The notes beneath the pieces are model-generated. The model did not search any database. It was not told the origin of the DNA and saw only the letters and a list, made by a program, of their open reading frames with translations. Below, in pieces: positions 20,970-42,331 of a stretch of DNA of 46,664 bases; positions within the stretch are counted from its first letter, which is position 1; the number at the start of each line of letters is the position of its first letter. The stretch lies in NCBI GenBank assembly GCA_015152565.1, contig SUTT01000012.1, positions 1-46,664 of the forward strand. The letters run 5' to 3'. Made by a program: the position numbers and the translations under genes. The DNA comes from Cyanobacteria bacterium SIG27. Lineage in GTDB: Bacteria; Cyanobacteriota; Vampirovibrionia; Gastranaerophilales; Gastranaerophilaceae.

Positions 20970-21548
20970 TTAATTTATTTTATCATATTCTTTTTTAATT
21001 TCTTGAATATCTTGCCACATGAGCCATTTTGGGGAGCCTTTTTCGCGAGAATCATTTCTTAACAAATATGAAGGATGAAAAATTGGCATCATTTTGGAGT
21101 TATATGGTCCATTAAACCACTTGCCTCTAGCAGAGGTTATCCCTCTTTCATTTGGAAGCATAGAATTTAGTGCAACTGAACCACAAATTAAAATTATTCT
21201 TGGTTTTAAAATTTCAAGTTGTTGGTCTAAAAATTCTCGACAAGCGTTTTTTTCCTCTGGTAAGGGGTTTCTATTTTCTGGTGGACGACACTTGATGGTG
21301 TTGCAAATATAAACGTGTTTTTGACGCGATAAACCAACTGATTCAAAAATCCTATCTAATAATTGCCCAGCTCGACCAACAAAAGGCAAGCCTTTCATAT
21401 CTTCCCAATATCCAGGAGCCTCTCCTATTAACATTAATTTTGAATTAGGAATACCATCAGAAAAGACAACATTTGTTCTAGAGTTTGCTAAGTGGCATTT
21501 TCTGCATTCCAGACATTTTTTCTTTATTTCATCAAGCTTATCAAACAT
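20970..21548 (-). CDS. Family 4 (Fe-S) uracil-DNA glycosylase
   Basis: About 192 residues from ATG 21548. The open frame runs further upstream but would cross the promoter and start of the divergent gene, and homologous sequence starts here. GEAPGYWEDMKGLPFVGRAG contains the uracil-binding motif, and HPSYLLR is the catalytic-end motif. CLECRKC and CNTIKCRPP with a later cysteine (KNACREF) fit the four [4Fe-4S] ligands of family 4 enzymes. It removes uracil from DNA arising by cytosine deamination, starting base-excision repair. It is divergent from a second member of the superfamily. Confidence 0.92.
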   Translation of the reverse strand: MFDKLDEIKKKCLECRKCHLANSRTNVVFSDGIPNSKLMLIGEAPGYWEDMKGLPFVGRAGQLLDRIFESVGLSRQKHVYICNTIKCRPPENRNPLPEEKNACREFLDQQLEILKPRIILICGSVALNSMLPNERGITSARGKWFNGPYNSKMMPIFHPSYLLRNDSREKGSPKWLMWQDIQEIKKEYDKIN

Positions 21549-21585
21549 AATGAAATTATAGTATAATAAAAAGAGTATAGGAGTT

Positions 21586-22233
21586 ATGATGATAGAAGTT
21601 TTTGAAAAAAAAGTTAATGAATTTGTTGAAAAATTAATTAATACAGATAAGACAAAATTTAAAAGGAACATTTTTAATCCTTGGGCTGAGTTTGATGAAA
21701 CTGATATTTCAAGTGAAGCACCAAAAATTAGAACTCAAAATTTAAAAAAATATTTGCTAAATCACAAAAATGCTTCCTATGTTCTTATTGCAGAATCTCC
21801 AAGTACAGGTGCAAGATATTCTGGAATTGCTATGACATCAGAAAAAGTTATAAATACCAATAATCTTGAATACGGTTATAGTTCCAAAAAATCAAAAGAT
21901 GGAAAATATGTTTATGAATTAACAGCTAAAAAAGTATGGGATGAAATTTTAGATAAAAAAGAAAATTTTGTTATGTGGAATGCTTTTGCTTTTAATATCC
22001 ATGAAAAAGATGGACGTTGGTTTGAAAATCCGACAATTGAAGAATTGGAACAAAATTTAGACATTTTAAATTCGTTTTTAGCTCTTTATAAAGATGTAAA
22101 AATTATAACTGTTGGAAAAACTGCACAAAATGCGCTAGAAATTCTTAAATTTAGCAATTTTGAATCAATAAGACACCCATCAAATGATTTTAAAAAAGAA
22201 TTTCCGCAACAATTTAAAAAGTATGTTGCTTAA
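21586..22233 (+). CDS. Uracil-DNA glycosylase superfamily protein
   Basis: A 215-residue protein with an ATAGGAG ribosome binding site. It lacks the Fe-S cysteines of its divergent neighbour but has superfamily motifs: LIAESPSTGARYSGIAMTSE (motif I region, about residues 67-86), VMWNAFAFN (about 129-137) and IRHPSND near the C-terminus. Similar proteins occur in gut Bacteroidetes and Firmicutes and are annotated only as uracil-DNA glycosylase-like. The substrate is unknown: uracil, another damaged base, or no glycosylase activity. It overlaps the end of the convergent glucanotransferase gene by 4 bases. Confidence 0.75.
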   Translation: MMIEVFEKKVNEFVEKLINTDKTKFKRNIFNPWAEFDETDISSEAPKIRTQNLKKYLLNHKNASYVLIAESPSTGARYSGIAMTSEKVINTNNLEYGYSSKKSKDGKYVYELTAKKVWDEILDKKENFVMWNAFAFNIHEKDGRWFENPTIEELEQNLDILNSFLALYKDVKIITVGKTAQNALEILKFSNFESIRHPSNDFKKEFPQQFKKYVA

Positions 22234-24053
22234 AAAACAACATCCAATCTGCCAAGTTTTTCTGCCCTATCGGCTTCTTTTCTTGTCATTGGTCCATCTT
22301 GAGTTAAAATTTCAGAAGCTTTTTTAAGTTGTTCAATTAGCTTATTATTGCTTGAATTTTTAGCTCTCAGCGCAACTTCATAAGCCTTAGGGAAGTTAAT
22401 TCCATAGCCTTTTGATAATTGTGAATAATAAAATCTTTCATAATCAGCTGGTATTCTAACTTTCCAGTTTGCAGCGTCAACTTTTCCAGTGTTGTTGATT
22501 TTTTCGCTCATTCCAAACAAATCCGTTAAAGTGTAATATTGATTTGCTGTTGTGAAAATTTCCGCTGCTTTTGCTGTTCTAAAGTCTTGTTCAAGACGTT
22601 CTTTGTATGGTTTTTCTTGATAATTTTTATCTTCATAACCTAAATATCTATAGCCTGCGCCTAGCGTTTCTTTTAATTGAGGGGTTTGAATTTTTCTTCT
22701 TTCAGCTTCTCTTGACATATTAACAATAGTATCGTTATCGTGATTTGCCATGCCAATTAAAAATTTACCATCAACATAGCCTTGTTGTTCTTTTAAATCT
22801 TTTGGGTTTTCGCCATATTGAGAATATGCTGTTGAAAAAACGTGAGGATAAATGTTTCTTGTCATATCTTTTGATTCTTGAACTCCATAGCCTACAAGTT
22901 CAAGCACAAAATCATCAGGGTTGAAATATCCTTTAGCGTCAATTGAAGCTTTTTCAATGATTTTTAAAATTTTATCTTGAAGATTATAAGTATATCCGCC
23001 TTTTAAATCTGAATTATATTCAAAAGGTGTAACATATTGCCAAAAAGCATCAAGCCTAATGCCATCATAAAGAGTTAAAAAGTTCTTAAATTTTTCATAT
23101 AAAAGTTCACCCACAACATCAAGACTTACAATTTCGCCGTTTTCATCAAATTCGCCTAATTTATCAAAATTTAACGACGGTGCCCACCAGCCTTGGATAT
23201 TGTTTGTTTCAGGGCAATTAGGGTCTTCTACACCCATAAAAACATCAGGCTTAAAACATTCAGAGTTCATTTGCACTTCTTTTTTTGAAAAACAAATTAA
23301 ACAATCGCCAAAATATTTAATTCCTTGTTCATTGAGTTCTTTTTTGGTTTCTAGGTGTTGTTTAAAAGCGATAAATTGGCAAAATTCTAAAAATTCAACT
23401 GATTCTCTTAATTCCCTAGCATCAAATTCGATATTTTTTCTTGCATATTGAGATAGCGTTTCTTTAAACGCTTCAAATTCTTGTTTTAGCTGCTCATCAT
23501 CAAGTTGTTTAAAATTGTCAAAAGCCTTGTGCAGCGCTTTAAATAAAATACCATCATATTTATTTCCTAAAACATAAGCGTAGTTTGTTGAATATTCTCT
23601 ATCTAATTTTGAAGCGGGGTAATTTTCATCCAATGATTTAATATAATTTTCATCTAACAGATTACCGTATTCATCATTGCATAGTTTATCAAGTGCAATT
23701 GTGTGTGAGCCAAGGGTGAAAGTTGTTCCTGAATACGGAGAAAGGTCAAAAACCAAGTCACCTCTTTGTTTTGAATATTGTAAGTCGCCTTGTGGAGCGG
23801 CTTGGATTTTATTTATTTGTGAAACATCTTGTAAAAATTGTATAAATTCAGGAGCGTTTGCTGAGTTAAGTGTTCCTATGGCATAGTTTTTACCGTAAAC
23901 TGATGGCACATTAAAATCAAAAATAATAGCTGCCGTTTCTTTTGTGCCAAGTTCTTCTCTAGCTTGTTCTTGAGCTTGTTTAAGCTTTTTTTGCTCATTT
24001 GAGCTTAGTGCTCTTTTAAAATTTGGGCAAGAAACAACGGAATTGATTTTCAT
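22230..24053 (-). CDS. GH77-like 4-alpha-glucanotransferase
   Basis: About 607 residues from ATG 24053; a GTG at 24062 is less likely. GH77 landmarks appear in order: FCQFIAFKQH with KYFGDCLICFS, then YDGIRLDAFW (nucleophile D, about residue 331), ELVGYGV (acid/base E, about 386) and MANHDNDT (third carboxylate, about 435, matching GTHDNDT). The family moves alpha-1,4-glucan chains during maltodextrin or glycogen use. The spacing fits, but the sequence is divergent and carries the N-terminal CPNFKRA tag seen in lineage-specific proteins, so the substrate may differ. No signal peptide was seen. It stands alone, convergent with the 21586 gene. Confidence 0.75.
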   Translation of the reverse strand: MKINSVVSCPNFKRALSSNEQKKLKQAQEQAREELGTKETAAIIFDFNVPSVYGKNYAIGTLNSANAPEFIQFLQDVSQINKIQAAPQGDLQYSKQRGDLVFDLSPYSGTTFTLGSHTIALDKLCNDEYGNLLDENYIKSLDENYPASKLDREYSTNYAYVLGNKYDGILFKALHKAFDNFKQLDDEQLKQEFEAFKETLSQYARKNIEFDARELRESVEFLEFCQFIAFKQHLETKKELNEQGIKYFGDCLICFSKKEVQMNSECFKPDVFMGVEDPNCPETNNIQGWWAPSLNFDKLGEFDENGEIVSLDVVGELLYEKFKNFLTLYDGIRLDAFWQYVTPFEYNSDLKGGYTYNLQDKILKIIEKASIDAKGYFNPDDFVLELVGYGVQESKDMTRNIYPHVFSTAYSQYGENPKDLKEQQGYVDGKFLIGMANHDNDTIVNMSREAERRKIQTPQLKETLGAGYRYLGYEDKNYQEKPYKERLEQDFRTAKAAEIFTTANQYYTLTDLFGMSEKINNTGKVDAANWKVRIPADYERFYYSQLSKGYGINFPKAYEVALRAKNSSNNKLIEQLKKASEILTQDGPMTRKEADRAEKLGRLDVVF

Positions 24054-24178
24054 ATTTAACACCTAACTAACTATATGTGTAGTATAAAACTAGTGAAAAT
24101 ATTTTTGTGCTATATATTACAATTTGTATCAAAATTTATTATTTTTTAAAGAAAATTTTTAAACGGTCGATAAATTAA

Positions 24179-26299
24179 ATGTATCAATGTGTGTATAAAT
24201 GTATGTATAATGTCGACTTTACAACGCTAAAAATAGAATTTAGCGAATATTTGCAAAAACTTGGGCTAATACCTGAAACTGAAAACGAAGAAGAAGTGTC
24301 AGGGGTTAGCATATTTGAGTATAGAGAAGAATTTAAGGAATTTATTCAAGAAAATTATAACATTGATATGGAATCTGAGGATTTTTCAACTAATCTTTCC
24401 GATTTAATGGAAACCGAAATTGAAGATGGAAAATTGGTTTTATCGGATGAAGAAGCGCAAAATAAAGATATGGCGTTTATGGTTAATCTTTTAAATGGGC
24501 TTTTTGAGGATGAAGAATTTGCAAAAAGCATTGATGAAGATGGGATTGAGGGTTTAAACGAAGAAGAAATTAAAAAGTTTTTAACTTTTGTGAGTTCTCA
24601 AGATGATGATGAAGAAACTTTAACTTTTGATGAAATTGCGGACGGTTATAAAAAAGTTGAAGATGGCGAGTATAACGTTAATGATATTGAATTAGAAGAA
24701 AAAGAAGAAATTGAAGAAGCTGAAGAAGAAACAGTGCAACCTGCTGTGCAATCATCTGGTGGAAACTCTGGTGGTGGATATAGCGGTGGTGGAAATAGCG
24801 GTGGAGGAAATAATGTTTCTAATACTCAAACAACCACACAAGATGACCCAAAAACTCTTGATCAAATGACTACTCAACAATTAAATGATGAATACGATAA
24901 ACAAAAGGTAAATGTAGATAATCACGCTCAAAATGTTAATAATGTCATTGCTCAAAATAACGAAAATGTTTTAAAAGCTAAAGAAGAATATGATAGCGCA
25001 ATAAATGTGGATGAAAATATTTCGCCTGAATTGTTAAATAAAAGAAATACTAATTTGGATGAAATTACAAAAACCGATTCTACTATTTCGCAATTAAAAA
25101 CAGAAATAAATGATATCGATGTTGAAATTTCTGCATGTGATAGTGAGCTTTCTTCAATTGAAAGCAGTATCTCGGCGCTTAATGCTTCTGTATCGTCTTT
25201 TTCTAATGTGCCAAGTGATGATAGCGAAGCACAACAAGAAGTGTCGGAAAAAAAACAAGTTGTTAATGAACAATTAACTCAATTGCAAACGAAGCAAAAA
25301 GAAGTTAGCGAGAAAAAAGCGCAATTGGAACAACAAAAAGCTCAAAAACAACAAGAGCTTGATCAAAACGCTGAAAAATTAAACACTTTAAATCTTGAAA
25401 AAGCTTCAATTGATGAAGAAATTTTAGCAAATGCTAATGAGCAAACAAAAAATGCTCTAAATGCTTATAATCAAGCAAGAGCTAATGCCGATACTTCGCT
25501 AAAAACTGCACAAGATAATTTAAAAACAGAAAAAGATAAATTAAGTAACATAGAAAAATATCTAAATGCTTCAAAATCAAAAGATATTCAAGATAAATAT
25601 AGCTACAGTCCGACCGCAGATATATTTAAAGAAGTGGGTGGATATAATTGGGATGAAGTAGTTGGACAAACAAAATTAAAATATGGGGTAATTTCGCCAA
25701 ATGAGATTGACCCAAATAAGAAAATGCCGCTTTTAATTTATCTTCATGGAACTGGTCATGAACAAGGTGGCTTAGACTTGATGGAGCAAAGAGTTTTTGG
25801 TGAAATTTTCAGTAATTATAAACAAGAAGATTTTAACGGATATGTTCTTTGTCCTAATTTAACCAGTGGAACTTGGCAAAGCGAGGATTCTGCTCGAGCG
25901 ATTGAAGAAGTAATTTCAAACTTTGCAAAAACTCATAATATTGATGAAGATAATATTGCTTTGGTTGGACACAGTTTTGGTGGTTCTGGTGCGCTATTTA
26001 TGGCAAACAGTGAAACATTTAATGGTTCAGGAAAATATCAACTTAAAAAAGCTGCAGCATTAACTGGTTATCCTGCAAAGAAATATAATGATTATAAAAT
26101 TCCAGTTACAATTTATGAAGATGCTGACTCTCATAAACTTTTAAAAGAAAGAGCTATTGATGCACTGAATGAACAAGATGGTGATCAATATTTTGACTAT
26201 AGAAGCGTTGATCATGGACTTGTTGATAATGTCGCTTTAACTAAAGATAAAGATGGCAACGGAAGAGCAGATTTATTTGAATGGCTTTATGGTAAATAG
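24179..26299 (+). CDS. Coiled-coil protein with C-terminal alpha/beta-hydrolase and EF-hand-like end
   Basis: A 706-residue mosaic protein. The N-terminal 190 residues are very acidic with helical, EF-hand-like stretches (SIDEDGIEGLNEEEIKKFL). A glycine-serine linker (GGNSGGGYSGGGNSGGG, about 197-213) follows, then a long coiled coil rich in K, E and Q (about 225-465). The C-terminal 230 residues are an alpha/beta-hydrolase: PLLIYLHGTGH (oxyanion region), GHSFGG (serine nucleophile) and SVDHGLVDN (catalytic histidine), like PHB-depolymerase/feruloyl-esterase types. It ends in DKDGNGRADLFE, a 12-residue calcium-loop pattern. An extracellular role is suspected but no signal peptide is visible; the first 25 residues hold several alternative ATGs. 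Confidence 0.72.
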   Translation: MYQCVYKCMYNVDFTTLKIEFSEYLQKLGLIPETENEEEVSGVSIFEYREEFKEFIQENYNIDMESEDFSTNLSDLMETEIEDGKLVLSDEEAQNKDMAFMVNLLNGLFEDEEFAKSIDEDGIEGLNEEEIKKFLTFVSSQDDDEETLTFDEIADGYKKVEDGEYNVNDIELEEKEEIEEAEEETVQPAVQSSGGNSGGGYSGGGNSGGGNNVSNTQTTTQDDPKTLDQMTTQQLNDEYDKQKVNVDNHAQNVNNVIAQNNENVLKAKEEYDSAINVDENISPELLNKRNTNLDEITKTDSTISQLKTEINDIDVEISACDSELSSIESSISALNASVSSFSNVPSDDSEAQQEVSEKKQVVNEQLTQLQTKQKEVSEKKAQLEQQKAQKQQELDQNAEKLNTLNLEKASIDEEILANANEQTKNALNAYNQARANADTSLKTAQDNLKTEKDKLSNIEKYLNASKSKDIQDKYSYSPTADIFKEVGGYNWDEVVGQTKLKYGVISPNEIDPNKKMPLLIYLHGTGHEQGGLDLMEQRVFGEIFSNYKQEDFNGYVLCPNLTSGTWQSEDSARAIEEVISNFAKTHNIDEDNIALVGHSFGGSGALFMANSETFNGSGKYQLKKAAALTGYPAKKYNDYKIPVTIYEDADSHKLLKERAIDALNEQDGDQYFDYRSVDHGLVDNVALTKDKDGNGRADLFEWLYGK

Positions 26300-26300
26300 A

Positions 26301-27443
26301 TTATCCCTTAAAACCATTTTTTGTTAAATCTTGCCAAATTGAGCTTGCTAGCGCTTTTTGGGCAGGATGAGTTAAATCTTGTTTTAGGCTATCTGATGGC
26401 AAATTTTTAAATTCTTCAATTAAGCCACTTGGTAGCGGGTTTGAAAAAGTATCATAAGCAAGGGCTGCTGCGTTTTCAATTTTACCATTTATTGTTGGTG
26501 GAACAATAATACCTTTGTAATCTTTTAAAACATCAACAGGAATTAATCTTCCTTCGTTTTGTCTTAGCCATTTTCCACCAGCGTCAAATTTAAATGCGTG
26601 ATCTCTTCCACCGGTTACAATGATGTTATCTGATAATTTACCGTAAACATCAACGTATTGCGGAATTGTATCTGTGATTATTGTTGGAAAAGGATGTTGA
26701 TTTCTTCCATAAATTGAATAATCAAAAGGAGTAACAGTTAGAGTGTTAATTCCGTTTTTCTGTCCTAAATCCATAACTGCTTTATCAACGCCACTATAGC
26801 TAACGCTTGAAACAAGTGCGATGTCATCTTGGCTTAGACCTATACCTTCTTTAAAATATTTTTGAATTGGACCATAAAATTCTTCAATTGCTTCTTCATA
26901 TTTTTTTGTTAATTCTGCTTTAGATAGCGAACTTCCGCCTTGTATGTTTTCTGGTTTAATATTTGTCCAACCAACCATACCAATTGTTGTTTTGGGTTGA
27001 GAACTAAATGCTTTATCAAAAATTTGAGCTTTTTGAATGTCATCAACTTTTTTAATTAAACCAAGATTTTTAAAACCGTCAACATTTTCAAAAATATGCT
27101 CAACAGCACTTCCATCCCAATTTTTGGCTAAAATTTTAACGCCATTATCAACTGTTGTAATTGAACCATTTGGAAGAGTCATAGAATTCAATTTTGCAAT
27201 TGCTTCGTTAATTTTTCCGGCTTGAACTAATGAAAATGCATCAACTACAAAATCGCTTTTTCCTTGAGAAATTAATTCGCTGCATTTTCTCAAAGCTTCC
27301 AAAATAGCGTCGCTACCATATTGTGCGGCTTTATTTCCTTTAAAAGAAACGCTATCAAATTGCATTGGTTTAAGGGAAATATTTTGTTTTTTGACATTTT
27401 GTGCTTTGTTTGAGATAGAAAAATTGATTTTATTAATATTCAT
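26301..27443 (-). CDS. Unknown protein with SFKG-type N-terminus
   Basis: A 380-residue protein not recognised by family. After a lysine- and asparagine-rich leader (about 28 residues) comes FDSVSFKGNKAAQYG, again the SF(K/G) motif of this lineage. The body looks alpha/beta: TTIGMVGWTN, DDIALVSSVSYSGVDKAVM, NTLTVTPFDYSIYG and DNIIVTGGRDHAF alternate strands and helices as in a Rossmann-like or SLOG-type nucleotide-binding fold, but no binding motif is certain. It is tail-to-tail with the esterase gene, one base apart. Location in the cell is unknown. Confidence 0.55.
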   Translation of the reverse strand: MNINKINFSISNKAQNVKKQNISLKPMQFDSVSFKGNKAAQYGSDAILEALRKCSELISQGKSDFVVDAFSLVQAGKINEAIAKLNSMTLPNGSITTVDNGVKILAKNWDGSAVEHIFENVDGFKNLGLIKKVDDIQKAQIFDKAFSSQPKTTIGMVGWTNIKPENIQGGSSLSKAELTKKYEEAIEEFYGPIQKYFKEGIGLSQDDIALVSSVSYSGVDKAVMDLGQKNGINTLTVTPFDYSIYGRNQHPFPTIITDTIPQYVDVYGKLSDNIIVTGGRDHAFKFDAGGKWLRQNEGRLIPVDVLKDYKGIIVPPTINGKIENAAALAYDTFSNPLPSGLIEEFKNLPSDSLKQDLTHPAQKALASSIWQDLTKNGFKG

Positions 27444-38569: not shown

Positions 38570-39040
38570 ATGGGTCAAGTTGTTAATAGAATAGAAATAG
38601 TTGAAATTGTTGAAGATTTAAAAAAACAAAATAAAAAAGTAGTTTTTACAAATGGCTGTTTTGACATCTTGCATATTGGACATGTTCGATATTTAAAAGA
38701 ATCGGCAAAATGCGGTGATATTTTAGTTATCGGATTAAATTCAGATAGCAGTGTTAAAAGATTAAAAGGAGAAACTCGCCCGATAAATAATGAATTTGAT
38801 AGAGCAGAATTATTATCTGAATTGGGCTTTGTTGATTATGTTGTGATTTTTGAGCAGGACTCACCTGTTGAATTGTTAGATGAAATAAAACCAAATATTT
38901 ATACAAAAGGAGCTGATTATACCATTGAAACGTTGCCTGAAGCAGAAACTGTTTTAAAAAATGGGGGCAAGGTAGAATTTATTAATTTAGTTGAGGGTAA
39001 ATCTACAACAAATGTTATTAAAAAGATTGAACAAAAATAA
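38570..39040 (+). CDS. rfaE2: D-glycero-beta-D-manno-heptose 1-phosphate adenylyltransferase
   Basis: A 156-residue nucleotidyltransferase equal to the C-terminal half of E. coli HldE. FTNGCFDILHIGHVRYL contains the HxGH nucleotide motif (about residues 33-36), and KRLKGETRPIN and EGKSTTNVI are family signatures (the last is the ISSxT-like site). It makes ADP-heptose for the LPS inner core. The kinase half (rfaE1) is not in this window. The ribosome site AGAAAGAGG precedes the ATG. A terminator lies between this gene and the parvulin gene. Confidence 0.92.
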   Translation: MGQVVNRIEIVEIVEDLKKQNKKVVFTNGCFDILHIGHVRYLKESAKCGDILVIGLNSDSSVKRLKGETRPINNEFDRAELLSELGFVDYVVIFEQDSPVELLDEIKPNIYTKGADYTIETLPEAETVLKNGGKVEFINLVEGKSTTNVIKKIEQK

Positions 39041-39123
39041 AATATTTGTTAAGAAATTAGCAATTTTTTTTGAATTGTTATAAAATAGATTTACTTAGAC
39101 TAGATATATTAAGGGAGTGTCGT

Positions 39124-40233
39124 ATGGGTGAAAGAAAATTTAGCCTTGAAGAATTGGCTCAAATAGTAGGCGGTATTTTAACAAAAGCACAAGATGTAAC
39201 TATTGATAAAGTTGCACCTCCAAAATTAGCTGATGAAAATACGCTTGCGCTTGCAATGAATGAAGAAGAAATTGAAAATATTGCCCAATCTAAGGCTAAA
39301 GCTGTATTGGTACCATTAGGTGTTAATTTAGATGGTATTTCAACAATCGAAGTTGAGCGTCCAAGATTGGCATTTATGAAATTGTTAAATGTATTTTACA
39401 TTGCCCCTGATACTCCAAGAAATATTCACCCAACAGCAGTTATTGATCCATCTGCAAAATTAGGTCAAAATGTTTCAATTGGTGCTAATGTTTTTGTTGG
39501 AAGAAATGCTGTAATTGGTGACAATACTGCGCTAATGCCAAATGTTTATGTTGGAAAAGAAGCAGTTATTGGTTCTGATTGTTTATTCCACCCAGGCGTA
39601 AATATTGGCGATTTTGTTAAAGTCGGCTCTCGTTGTATTTTTCACCATGGAGTTAGCCTTGGTGCTGATGGTTTTTCTTTTGTAACAGAAGCTCCAAATA
39701 ATATTGAGCAAGCTCGAGCTGAGGGCGCTATTAAAGAAGTTAATACTGAAGTAAAAGTGTTTAAAATTCCATCACTTGGTTCTGTTGAAATTGGTGATGA
39801 TGTTGAAATTGGCGCTAATACTTGTGTTGATAGGGGAACTGTTGAAAATACTGTAATTGGTTCTCAAACAAAAATTGATAATCTTGTTATGATTGGTCAT
39901 AACTGCAGAATTGGCAAAGCTTGTACAATTGTATCTCAAGTTGGTATCGCTGGTTCTTGTGTGATTGGTGATAGAGTAGTAATTGCTGGTCAAGCTGGCT
40001 TAAAAGACCATATTGAAATTGGCGATGATTCAATTATTTTAGCACAAGCTGGTGTTACTAAATCATTCCCAAGAAAATCAGTTGTAATGGGTGCTCCTGC
40101 GGTTCTTAGAAAAGATTTCATTAAGAGATTAAAATATCTTGATGAAGCAGAAGTTATGGTTCAAAAATACAAAAAATATCAACATTTATTAGAAGATTAT
40201 GAGAAATTTTTAAATGAAGACGGTAAAATCTAG
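39124..40233 (+). CDS. lpxD: UDP-3-O-acylglucosamine N-acyltransferase LpxD
   Basis: About 369 residues from ATG 39124, chosen over an upstream start at 39070 because AAGGGAG is correctly spaced. The N-terminal uridine-binding domain ([12 protein letters not shown]) is followed by a left-handed beta helix of hexapeptide repeats ([38 protein letters not shown]). [12 protein letters not shown] holds the catalytic-site histidine and MIGHNCRIG is a typical LpxD turn. It adds the second, N-linked acyl chain in lipid A synthesis. Its end overlaps lpxC by 20 bases. Confidence 0.96.
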
Positions 40234-41035
40234 TTTTAAATTATCAGGAGCAGGCTTAATGTTTGCTGCTCCGGTGGAACTTACTATAAAACCATCTGAT
40301 AAAAAAGGAATTCGTTTTTTTATTGGTGATGGTGTGGTTGAGGCAACTGTAAATAATGTAGTTTCAACAGAACATTGTGTAATTTTGGCTGATGTTATGG
40401 CAGGTGCTAAGCATAAAATTGCTCTAGTTGAACATTTTATGGCTACTTGTGCAATATGTGAAATTGACGCATTAGATGTTTATTTTGAATCGGCTGGGTT
40501 TGAAATGCCAATTTTTGATGGTTCGGCTCGTGTTTGGGTTGAAGAATTTAACAAAGTTGGTTTTGAGGGTGTTTCAGAAGCAACAAAAGCATTAAATGAA
40601 GTTGTAACATTTAACAAAAATCATTCTTCAATTACATTAATGCCCGATGAAAACCCTACAACAATAACTTATGCTGTTAATTTTAATCACCCTGATTTAA
40701 ACAACAGGTGGGTTAAATTAAATGATAATTTAGATGAAATTATAGAAGCAAGAACTTTTGGCTATTTAAAAGACCTAGAAAAATTTCAAGCAGCAGGATA
40801 TTCAAAAGGTGTAACTATAGAAAATACTGTTGGTTTAACTGATAATGGTTATACAACAGAATTGAGAAGTCAATATGAACCTGCTAAACATAAGATTTTA
40901 GATATCATTGGTGACTTGTATTTAACAGGATATAACCCACTTAAAATGAATGCTAAAATTATAGCTATTGAAGCAGGGCACCAGTACCATGTTGAACTAG
41001 CAAAGAAATTAAAGCAAACACTAGATAAAAATTAA
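40214..41035 (+). CDS. lpxC: UDP-3-O-acyl-GlcNAc deacetylase LpxC
   Basis: A 273-residue zinc enzyme for the committed step of lipid A synthesis. Metal ligands are present: H in LVEHFMAT, and H and D in [16 protein letters not shown] supplies the catalytic histidine. [10 protein letters not shown] is a family motif. The N-terminal motif, normally GxGLHSG, reads GAGLMFAAP, so the usual histidine is methionine. The length is slightly short of the usual 280-305. It starts inside the end of lpxD and is translated with it. The family is clear despite divergence. Confidence 0.94.
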
Positions 41036-41055
41036 AATAAAAGAGGAGATATAAA

Positions 41056-41502
41056 ATGGATTCGATAATCGCACCAGTTTCTCTGGATTATGCTCAAATT
41101 CTAGAGATGTTACCACATAGATACCCATTTTTATTGGTTGATAGAATTACTGAGTGTGTTCCAGGACAATATTCAAAAGGATATAAAAATGTTTCGTTTA
41201 ATGAACCATTTTTTCATGGGCATTTCCCTGAAAATCCAATTATGCCAGGAGTATTGCAAATTGAAGCATTAGCTCAAACATCTGCTCCAATTTTGATGTT
41301 AATGGAACAATATAAAGGTAAGTTAACTCTTTTTGCAGGGGTTGATGGAGCTAAATTTAAAAACATTGTTCGCCCAGGTGACAAATTGGAAATGGAAACA
41401 GAAATTATTAAAATGAAAGGTCCTATCGCAAAGTGCTTTGGTCGTTCATTTGTAGATGGAAAATTATGCTTAGAAGCAACTTTAACAGTTGCTCTCAAAT
41501 AG
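41056..41502 (+). CDS. fabZ: 3-hydroxyacyl-ACP dehydratase FabZ
   Basis: A 148-residue hot-dog-fold dehydratase preceded by AGAGGAG. LPHRYPFLLVDRI, FFHGHFPENPIMPGV (catalytic histidine) and QIEALAQ (catalytic glutamate) are complete. It dehydrates 3-hydroxyacyl-ACP in fatty acid elongation. Its place between lpxC and lpxA is the classic order, since it competes with LpxA for the same hydroxyacyl-ACP pool. Confidence 0.97.
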   Translation: MDSIIAPVSLDYAQILEMLPHRYPFLLVDRITECVPGQYSKGYKNVSFNEPFFHGHFPENPIMPGVLQIEALAQTSAPILMLMEQYKGKLTLFAGVDGAKFKNIVRPGDKLEMETEIIKMKGPIAKCFGRSFVDGKLCLEATLTVALK

Positions 41503-41521
41503 GAATTAAGGAAAAAATAAA

Positions 41522-42331
41522 ATGGCAAATAAAATTCATCCAAGCGTTGTGATTCACGAAAGTGCTAAAATAGCTGAAAATGTTGAAATTGGAGCTTATA
41601 CTATAATTGGTGAAAATACAATTATAGAAGAGGGTTGTAAAATTGGCGAAAACGCTAATATTCAATTTGCCCATATTGGCAAAAATACTCGCATTTCTCC
41701 TTTTGCTTCAATTGGTGGTGAACCTCAGGATTTAGGTTATAAAAATGAAAAAACAGGTGTAATTATTGGTGAAAACTGTTGGATTAGGGAATTTTCAACA
41801 ATTAACCGTGCATCTGGTGAGGGCTCTAATACAATTATTGGTAATAATTGCCTGTTGATGGCTTATACTCACGTTGCTCATAATTGCGTGCTTGGTGATA
41901 ACGTCATTATGGCTAATGCTGCAACATTAGGCGGACACTGCCATGTTGGTTTTGGTGTATTTTTAGGTGGTCAAAGCGTATTTCATCAAAATCTTAGAAT
42001 TGGTGATATGGCAATTGTTTCAGGAGCTTCAGCAGCTAGACTTGACATTATTCCATATTGCAAAGCAGAGGGAATTCCTGCTATTCCAATGGGGACAAAC
42101 GCTATTGGTTTAAGAAGAAAAGATGTTGATAAAGAATCACGTGATGCGCTTCATAAGGCAATTCGTTTATTAAAAAGTGACGAATATAATACAACTCAAG
42201 CGTTAGAGTTAATTGAAGCTGAATTTAAAGGCAATAAATATGTAGATAATCTTGTTGAATTTGTAAAAAGTTCAAAAAGAGGTTGTTCTCTAAAAAGACA
42301 CAAAACTACATTTGGTCAAGACGAAGAATAA
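41522..42331 (+). CDS. lpxA: UDP-GlcNAc acyltransferase LpxA
   Basis: A 269-residue left-handed beta-helix acyltransferase. It opens with IHPSVVIHESAKIAENVEIG, has the QDLGYKNEKTGVIIG loop, and THVAHNCVLGDN holds the catalytic histidine. A helical C-terminal domain follows (EGIPAIPMGTNAIGLRR). It catalyses the first acylation of UDP-GlcNAc in lipid A synthesis, using 3-hydroxyacyl-ACP. Length is normal. It sits 19 bases after fabZ. Confidence 0.97.
   Translation: MANKIHPSVVIHESAKIAENVEIGAYTIIGENTIIEEGCKIGENANIQFAHIGKNTRISPFASIGGEPQDLGYKNEKTGVIIGENCWIREFSTINRASGEGSNTIIGNNCLLMAYTHVAHNCVLGDNVIMANAATLGGHCHVGFGVFLGGQSVFHQNLRIGDMAIVSGASAARLDIIPYCKAEGIPAIPMGTNAIGLRRKDVDKESRDALHKAIRLLKSDEYNTTQALELIEAEFKGNKYVDNLVEFVKSSKRGCSLKRHKTTFGQDEE

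Follow-up and report, generated by a model that had tools for sequence, protein, structure and literature searches.

A predicted calcium-binding, coiled-coil front shared by a lineage-restricted family of modular hydrolases in Candidatus Gastranaerophilales

The DNA analysed here (hereafter the window) is a stretch of 46,664 nucleotides from a gut bacterium related to cyanobacteria that carries, on its forward strand, an open reading frame of 706 residues (24179-26299) in which an acidic N-terminal module, a Gly/Ser linker, a coiled coil and an alpha/beta hydrolase head succeed one another in one chain. The sequence-only reading had listed an acidic region, a GGGNSGGG linker, a coiled coil of about 240 residues, a GHSFGG esterase and the C-terminal DKDGNGRADLFE, and all of them are found in this single protein (GGGNSGGG at residue 203, GHSFGG at 597 with Ser599, and DKDGNGRADLFE at 690). 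Since the homology to its relatives begins near Met9 in their alignment, the true start may be at 24203 instead of 24179. The gene is solitary, with neighbours on both sides encoded on the opposite strand: a GH77-like gene upstream (22230-24062; Pfam Glyco_hydro_77, 62.4 bits) and a convergent gene of 380 residues downstream (26301-27443), only 1 bp away. Elsewhere in the window (20970-22233), two genes of the uracil-DNA-glycosylase superfamily lie on opposite strands with a head-to-head overlap, the second being a weak match (20.7 bits vs 24.3). A paralogue encoded in the same genome (C4:241-2325) is 44% identical across residues 2-705 and also has an esterase head. As this paralogue spans nearly the whole protein and the family collected comprises 85 complete, distinct members, the mosaic architecture is not due to chance. 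The full-length AF2 model has a mean pLDDT of 83.0 and a pTM of 0.48, a low value at which the modelled placing of the domains relative to each other is tentative.

The N-terminal region is acidic, as had been claimed (net charge of -41 and 30% D+E over residues 1-178), yet it is not a plain acidic tract: the alignment, the AF2 model, the profile match and Pfam delimit a helical module with an EF-hand pair (24203-24712, forward strand) that lacks a signal peptide and is common to the family. The first EF-hand loop covers residues 119-130 (24533-24568), with D119 and E130 nearly invariant in the alignment; a second, weaker EF-hand-like loop, the boundary of which is approximate, covers residues 142-153 or so (24602-24637), with D142 nearly invariant. 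The model of the isolated module (mean pLDDT = 85.1, pTM = 0.80) places helices on either side of residues 119-130, and the module thus contains the 12-residue DxDxDG...E loop and flanking helices that characterize EF-hands. The best match of its profile is the Entamoeba calcium-binding protein 1jfj (E = 6.3e-12). Pfam EF-hand_1 was found in 18 of 53 members (E<=0.01) and is not listed for the 706-residue protein itself, and dockerins are absent among the Pfam matches listed for this protein and the 53 members. Regarding the fold alone, Foldseek returned no match at E<=0.001 and a second structural comparison retrieved mostly EF-hand chains, weakly (Z of 2.9 or less), which speaks neither for a new fold nor for a known one. 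Taken together, sequence and model indicate that the module is an EF-hand pair predicted to bind calcium. The shared front as a whole is not covered by any of the Pfam, NCBIfam or PHROGs families met in the scans.

The module is followed by a disordered Gly/Ser/Asn linker (residues 179-231, 24713-24871, forward strand) that includes GGGNSGGG and has pLDDT values below 50 at residues 175-191 and 193-220. The coiled-coil region comes next (24872-25600, forward strand). Its length of about 243 residues agrees with the previous estimate, but its continuity does not hold in the AF2 model, where it is split in four helices (232-276, 283-343, 349-418 and 421-474); these separate helices may fold back or may form a single rod. 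SMC-like coiled-coil matches occur in 46 of the 53 members. The SMC/Rad50 matches in NCBIfam were set aside, and so was the defence role suggested by PADLOC, whose matches are confined to the coiled coil.

The C-terminal head (25619-26296, forward strand) is assigned by its fold, Pfam and alignment to the CE1/feruloyl-esterase-like alpha/beta hydrolases. The head alone reaches 23.8 bits against PF00756 (Putative esterase; cut-off of 22), while the whole protein (18.9 bits) remains under the cut-off. In agreement with the esterase previously suspected from GHSFGG, its modelled fold most resembles that of feruloyl esterases from cellulosomal enzymes: it can be superposed on 1jjf, the feruloyl esterase of XynZ (Z = 18.8, 2.5 A, 197 residues), as well as on 3doh (Z = 18.8, 2.9 A, 201 residues) and on 3wyd, the C-terminal esterase of LC-Est1 (Z = 17.9, 2.7 A, 180 residues, 23% identity). 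When eight esterase heads are aligned, the predicted nucleophile (Ser599 in GHSFGG, 25973-25975) is invariant and the predicted catalytic histidine (His679 in VDHGLVD, 26213-26215) is present in seven, the eighth ending before this position; the catalytic acid is not strictly conserved, with a D/E position that shifts between heads. The calcium-loop C-terminus of the earlier reading is borne out as a calcium-type motif (DxDGxGxxDLxE, residues 690-701, 26246-26281) retained in related heads, since a DxDGxGxSDLxEWL-like tail recurs among the eight. Alignment and fold thus show a CE1/feruloyl-esterase-like head with a predicted Ser599 and His679.

The look of a one-off mosaic was not upheld by a check of domain architectures, which revealed a lineage family with a common front and a variable head. 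In total, 99 family proteins were collected; six candidates from the first search for relatives (L005, L027, L029, L052, L054 and L057) were excluded as single esterases or unrelated sequences. In L005 (1273-2301), the same esterase head is carried by another, short N-terminus without a coiled coil, and the same contig also encodes a head-less family member. A profile of the N-module built from 29 members matched 33 of the 117 genomes from the taxonomic family of this bacterium, with up to 16 matches per genome (G062) and nine in G098; these counts refer to stretches, of which one protein may yield two. In draws of 146 genomes each, the same profile matched 23 at the level of the order and five at the level of the phylum, all five belonging to the same taxonomic family. 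When the whole protein served as the query against 58 relatives, 33 of them gave a match at E<=0.001, in a few cases via the esterase head only; matches to the whole protein were obtained in genus g14 as well (G040 and G045), from a different family of the same order. In these searches, the protein family was confined to some genera of Candidatus Gastranaerophilales. No description of it was met in searches of the openly licensed literature on Gastranaerophilales/Melainabacteria and on EF-hand coiled-coil CHAP hydrolases. Every component is of a known kind; their combination and its restriction to one lineage appear undescribed.

The N-module and the coiled coil are constant among members and the C-terminal head differs. 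After exclusion of 13 truncated sequences, 86 proteins were complete at their 3' end, and the head count used 85 members distinct over their last 150 residues, which contain at least nine different C-terminal contents. BLAST clustering of the last 190 residues groups these 85 members in clusters of 43, 12, 6, 6, 4, 3, 2 and 2 plus seven singletons. Heads were identified using Pfam on cluster representatives and whole-protein scans of 53 members; they include CHAP-like, lysozyme-like, glucosaminidase, SLT, GH108, YkuD, C39-like, M15, calpain-like (a single case) and CE1/feruloyl-esterase-like domains, or none. In the cluster of 43, CHAP is over the cut-off in two of the six representatives scanned and the other four (L050, L006, L067 and L096) have no Pfam match; in the lysozyme-like cluster of 12, glucosaminidase was detected in two of three, the third (L039) having no Pfam match. 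Further representatives correspond by Pfam to GH108, SLT, YkuD_2, C39-like and M15, the esterase group makes up one of the six-member clusters, and the members of the cluster of three, like three of the singletons, finish with the coiled coil or a short tail, with no head visible in the sequence. The calpain-like match, below its cut-off, is at the C-terminus of a 1786-residue member from G098 (L103:4183-9543) that also has a hydrophobic segment near residue 1030. Many heads match endolysin and tail-lysozyme families in PHROGs. By domain match, most heads are of peptidoglycan-cutting types, which suggests that bacterial cell walls are the theme of the family.

The relationship between heads and front was studied on a tree built from 53 N-modules, those of the 78 labelled proteins that had sufficient length and coverage. 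The head classes need 13 changes on this tree (minimum of 7; shuffled mean of 24.2), although 26 of its 50 inner branches are weak, the bootstrap is unsettled and the well-supported branches force few changes. Heads therefore mostly track the N-module in this tree: they are strongly clustered and incompletely congruent with it, which is limited evidence for head exchange. A phage origin of the front was considered and rejected: the front and stalk (residues 9-478, head omitted) had no match in 50,697 phage records, and a scan of viral contigs, which reaches close relatives only, found no relative of the 706-residue protein or of three CHAP-headed members.

Where these proteins act is a separate question. 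As the earlier reading had observed, no export signal is visible. The 706-residue protein has neither a signal peptide nor a strongly hydrophobic segment that could anchor it, and a simple Kyte-Doolittle test found no hydrophobic stretch, and hence no N-terminal signal of a Sec-exported surface enzyme, in 90 of 91 family N-termini (family median of 0.49, against 2.24 and 2.44 for two control proteins of the window). The start of the only hydrophobic exception looks as if it had been called too far upstream. The lack of a signal peptide could be explained if these proteins were cytoplasmic enzymes or degenerate relics without export. Nevertheless, their frames are intact, the predicted catalytic Ser and His are preserved and the peptidoglycan-type heads would have no substrate in the cytoplasm, making this scenario scarcely credible. 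Because peptidoglycan lies only outside the cytoplasm, the heads are expected to act there. There is about an even chance that the 706-residue protein belongs to a family of modular hydrolases, specific to this lineage, that work outside the cytoplasm.

Markers of dedicated secretion systems were sought in the 117 genomes of the taxonomic family. VirB4 (T4SS) and the VipB sheath (T6SS) were found in none, their positive controls being matched in Caulobacter and E. coli, respectively; WXG100 (T7SS; positive control matched in B. subtilis) was over the cut-off in none, with one weak sub-threshold match. A phage-type sheath was detected at E<=0.001 in 17 of the 117, and neither in the genome of this bacterium nor in the four further genomes that represented its genus in the draw. 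These results bear on a second explanation, according to which the family would be a weapon against other bacteria, in the form of a lysin-like, polymorphic effector that is set free by lysis or delivered to neighbours and whose head varies under competition. Variable heads on a constant front, their resemblance to phage endolysins and the multiple copies per genome would all be congruent with it. Yet, besides the lack of T4SS and T6SS markers and of any T7SS marker over the cut-off, a short co-directional reading frame (<250 residues) within 100 bp downstream accompanies only four of 48 members, and the 706-residue gene itself faces the convergent 380-residue gene. This scarcity of immunity-like neighbours argues against classical effector-immunity pairs and is compatible with a role against other cells; overall, the weapon scenario seems unlikely.

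The same scarcity would also fit a housekeeping role, in which these enzymes remodel the wall of their producer during growth or division, or where the basal body needs a gap, in response to external calcium and in a manner similar to CwlO or PcsB. The association of a coiled coil with CHAP/NlpC-like heads and the scattering of single genes among housekeeping genes are consistent with such a role. Nevertheless, since 84 of the 117 genomes have no N-module match, the function would not be essential to the lineage; moreover, CwlO and PcsB have signal peptides, and the esterase, calpain-like and head-less members fit poorly, so that this role appears quite unlikely. It had also been suggested that the protein is a surface tether with a hydrolase head for dietary ester-linked polymers. 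The hydrolase part is sustained by the esterase fold; the tether is not, given the lack of a visible anchor and the broken coiled coil. A cell-surface esterase acting on dietary or host glycan esters, with the coiled coil as a tether, would agree with the likeness of the head to the feruloyl esterases of enzymes from cellulosomes and from the gut, and with the gut sources of some named relatives. On the other side, sister proteins with the same front mostly carry peptidoglycan hydrolase heads, which do not act on diet. That both copies in this genome are esterase-headed makes a local specialisation possible but unproven; the surface tether and dietary ester roles of the protein are likewise unproven, and we consider this explanation improbable.

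If these hydrolases are indeed extracytoplasmic, the question arises of how they leave the cell. FHIPEP, the flagellar/type III export gate, was detected in 116 of the 117 genomes, including flagellin-less ones, and flagellin in 49. The richest carriers of the N-module, G062 and G098, have no flagellin; the flagellum was thus discarded as a necessary route. FHIPEP scores fall into two classes: a flagellar class with at least 847 bits in 48 genomes, all of them among the 49 with flagellin when both lists are compared, and a second class with around 713-736 bits in genomes with or without flagellin. The genome of this bacterium has two full-profile copies, on contigs C7 (L144:9007-15638) and C32 (L146:11207-17592), and its second-class gene (FlhA) adjoins FliE, FliF, FliH and an SLT gene whose product shows no signal peptide. 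In the flagellin-less G098, a second-class FHIPEP gene has apparent rod protein genes as its neighbours (L147). This second class, present in nearly all genomes including flagellin-less ones, and its gene neighbours suggest a retained, flagellin-less basal body. Most Gastranaerophilales known at the time were reported to have only a subset of flagellar genes, which was taken to mean no functional flagellum (PMC4040986), and another study similarly mentions a partial flagellar gene set (PMC5877343). As the gate is near-universal (116/117) and the protein family patchy (33/117), no co-variation backs export through FHIPEP.

Two other observations concern the envelope and the N-termini. At 38570-42331, the window contains genes that read by eye as a lipid A/heptose run (rfaE2-, lpxD-, lpxC-, fabZ- and lpxA-like), and from these reading frames an outer membrane is likely in this bacterium. 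In addition, a short low-complexity N-terminus ending in SFKG or NFKG precedes a folded domain in several proteins of this lineage (window 26301-27443, L111:13280-13912, L145:12415-13728, L104:8737-9465 and L114:1127-4045). Counted as F[KT]G, this pattern occurs in 5/103 first windows vs 5/511 later windows in pieces of the same genome, and in 8/262 vs 19/1406 elsewhere, several of the matches being ordinary signal sequences; as a putative N-terminal tag, SFKG/NFKG is a weak lead.

Returning to the lineage-specific, extracytoplasmic hydrolase family, its functioning could be envisaged as follows. The 706-residue protein would be exported independently of Sec; its EF-hand module would fold or dock on meeting extracellular calcium, the coiled coil would oligomerise or space the head, and the esterase head would cut acyl esters on envelope or cell-wall glycans while sister heads would cut peptidoglycan. 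Export could proceed through the flagellar/type III gate kept by nearly every genome, as for the signal-less FlgJ; this step, reached by elimination, is the least certain one and can be proposed only tentatively. A bolder possibility, which we regard as a long shot, is that the flagellin-less, flagellum-derived basal body is a true secretion machine in Gastranaerophilales and that the EF-hand/coiled-coil family is its calcium-folded cargo of signal-less enzymes, whose interchangeable heads open or modify the walls of neighbours. If the family is exported, testable questions follow: by what route enzymes leave the cells of an uncultured gut lineage that has no T4SS, T6SS or T7SS markers, and what purpose the retained flagellin-less basal-body genes serve. 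Databases sort these proteins by their heads and so miss that a single lineage has built a toolkit in which exchangeable hydrolases for walls and esters share one calcium-binding stalk.

Several known systems resemble this family in part. FlgJ is a flagellar rod-capping muramidase, a signal-less wall hydrolase exported by the flagellar gate. Like the family, it lacks a signal and carries its C-terminal head behind a front that is not catalytic; it differs in being a rod protein with no EF-hand and no coiled coil, and the FlgJ-type rod-binding domain is absent among the Pfam matches listed for the 706-residue protein, whose head is an esterase, and for the 53 members. In PcsB and CwlO, too, a CHAP or NlpC/P60 head comes after a long coiled coil, but these proteins carry signal peptides, no EF-hand module and heads of one kind. 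The LXG/T7SS polymorphic toxins have a similar constant front with an exchangeable C-terminal enzyme, whereas here no WXG100 is over the cut-off in 117 genomes and 44 of 48 members have no immunity-like neighbour. With phage endolysins, the likeness lies in the many family heads that match PHROGs endolysin families, and the difference in the front and stalk of the 706-residue protein, not met in the phage records. Finally, some CE1 feruloyl esterases form part of cellulosomal enzymes that also contain calcium-binding dockerins. The CE1/PF00756 proteins (1jjf of XynZ, 1gkk of XynY, 3doh and 3wyd of LC-Est1C) share the fold of the head (Z of 17.9-18.8) and the Ser nucleophile motif; compared with them, the 706-residue protein shows 13-23% identity, lacks a signal peptide, and possesses both an EF-hand and coiled-coil front and the extra DxDGxGxxDLxE motif.
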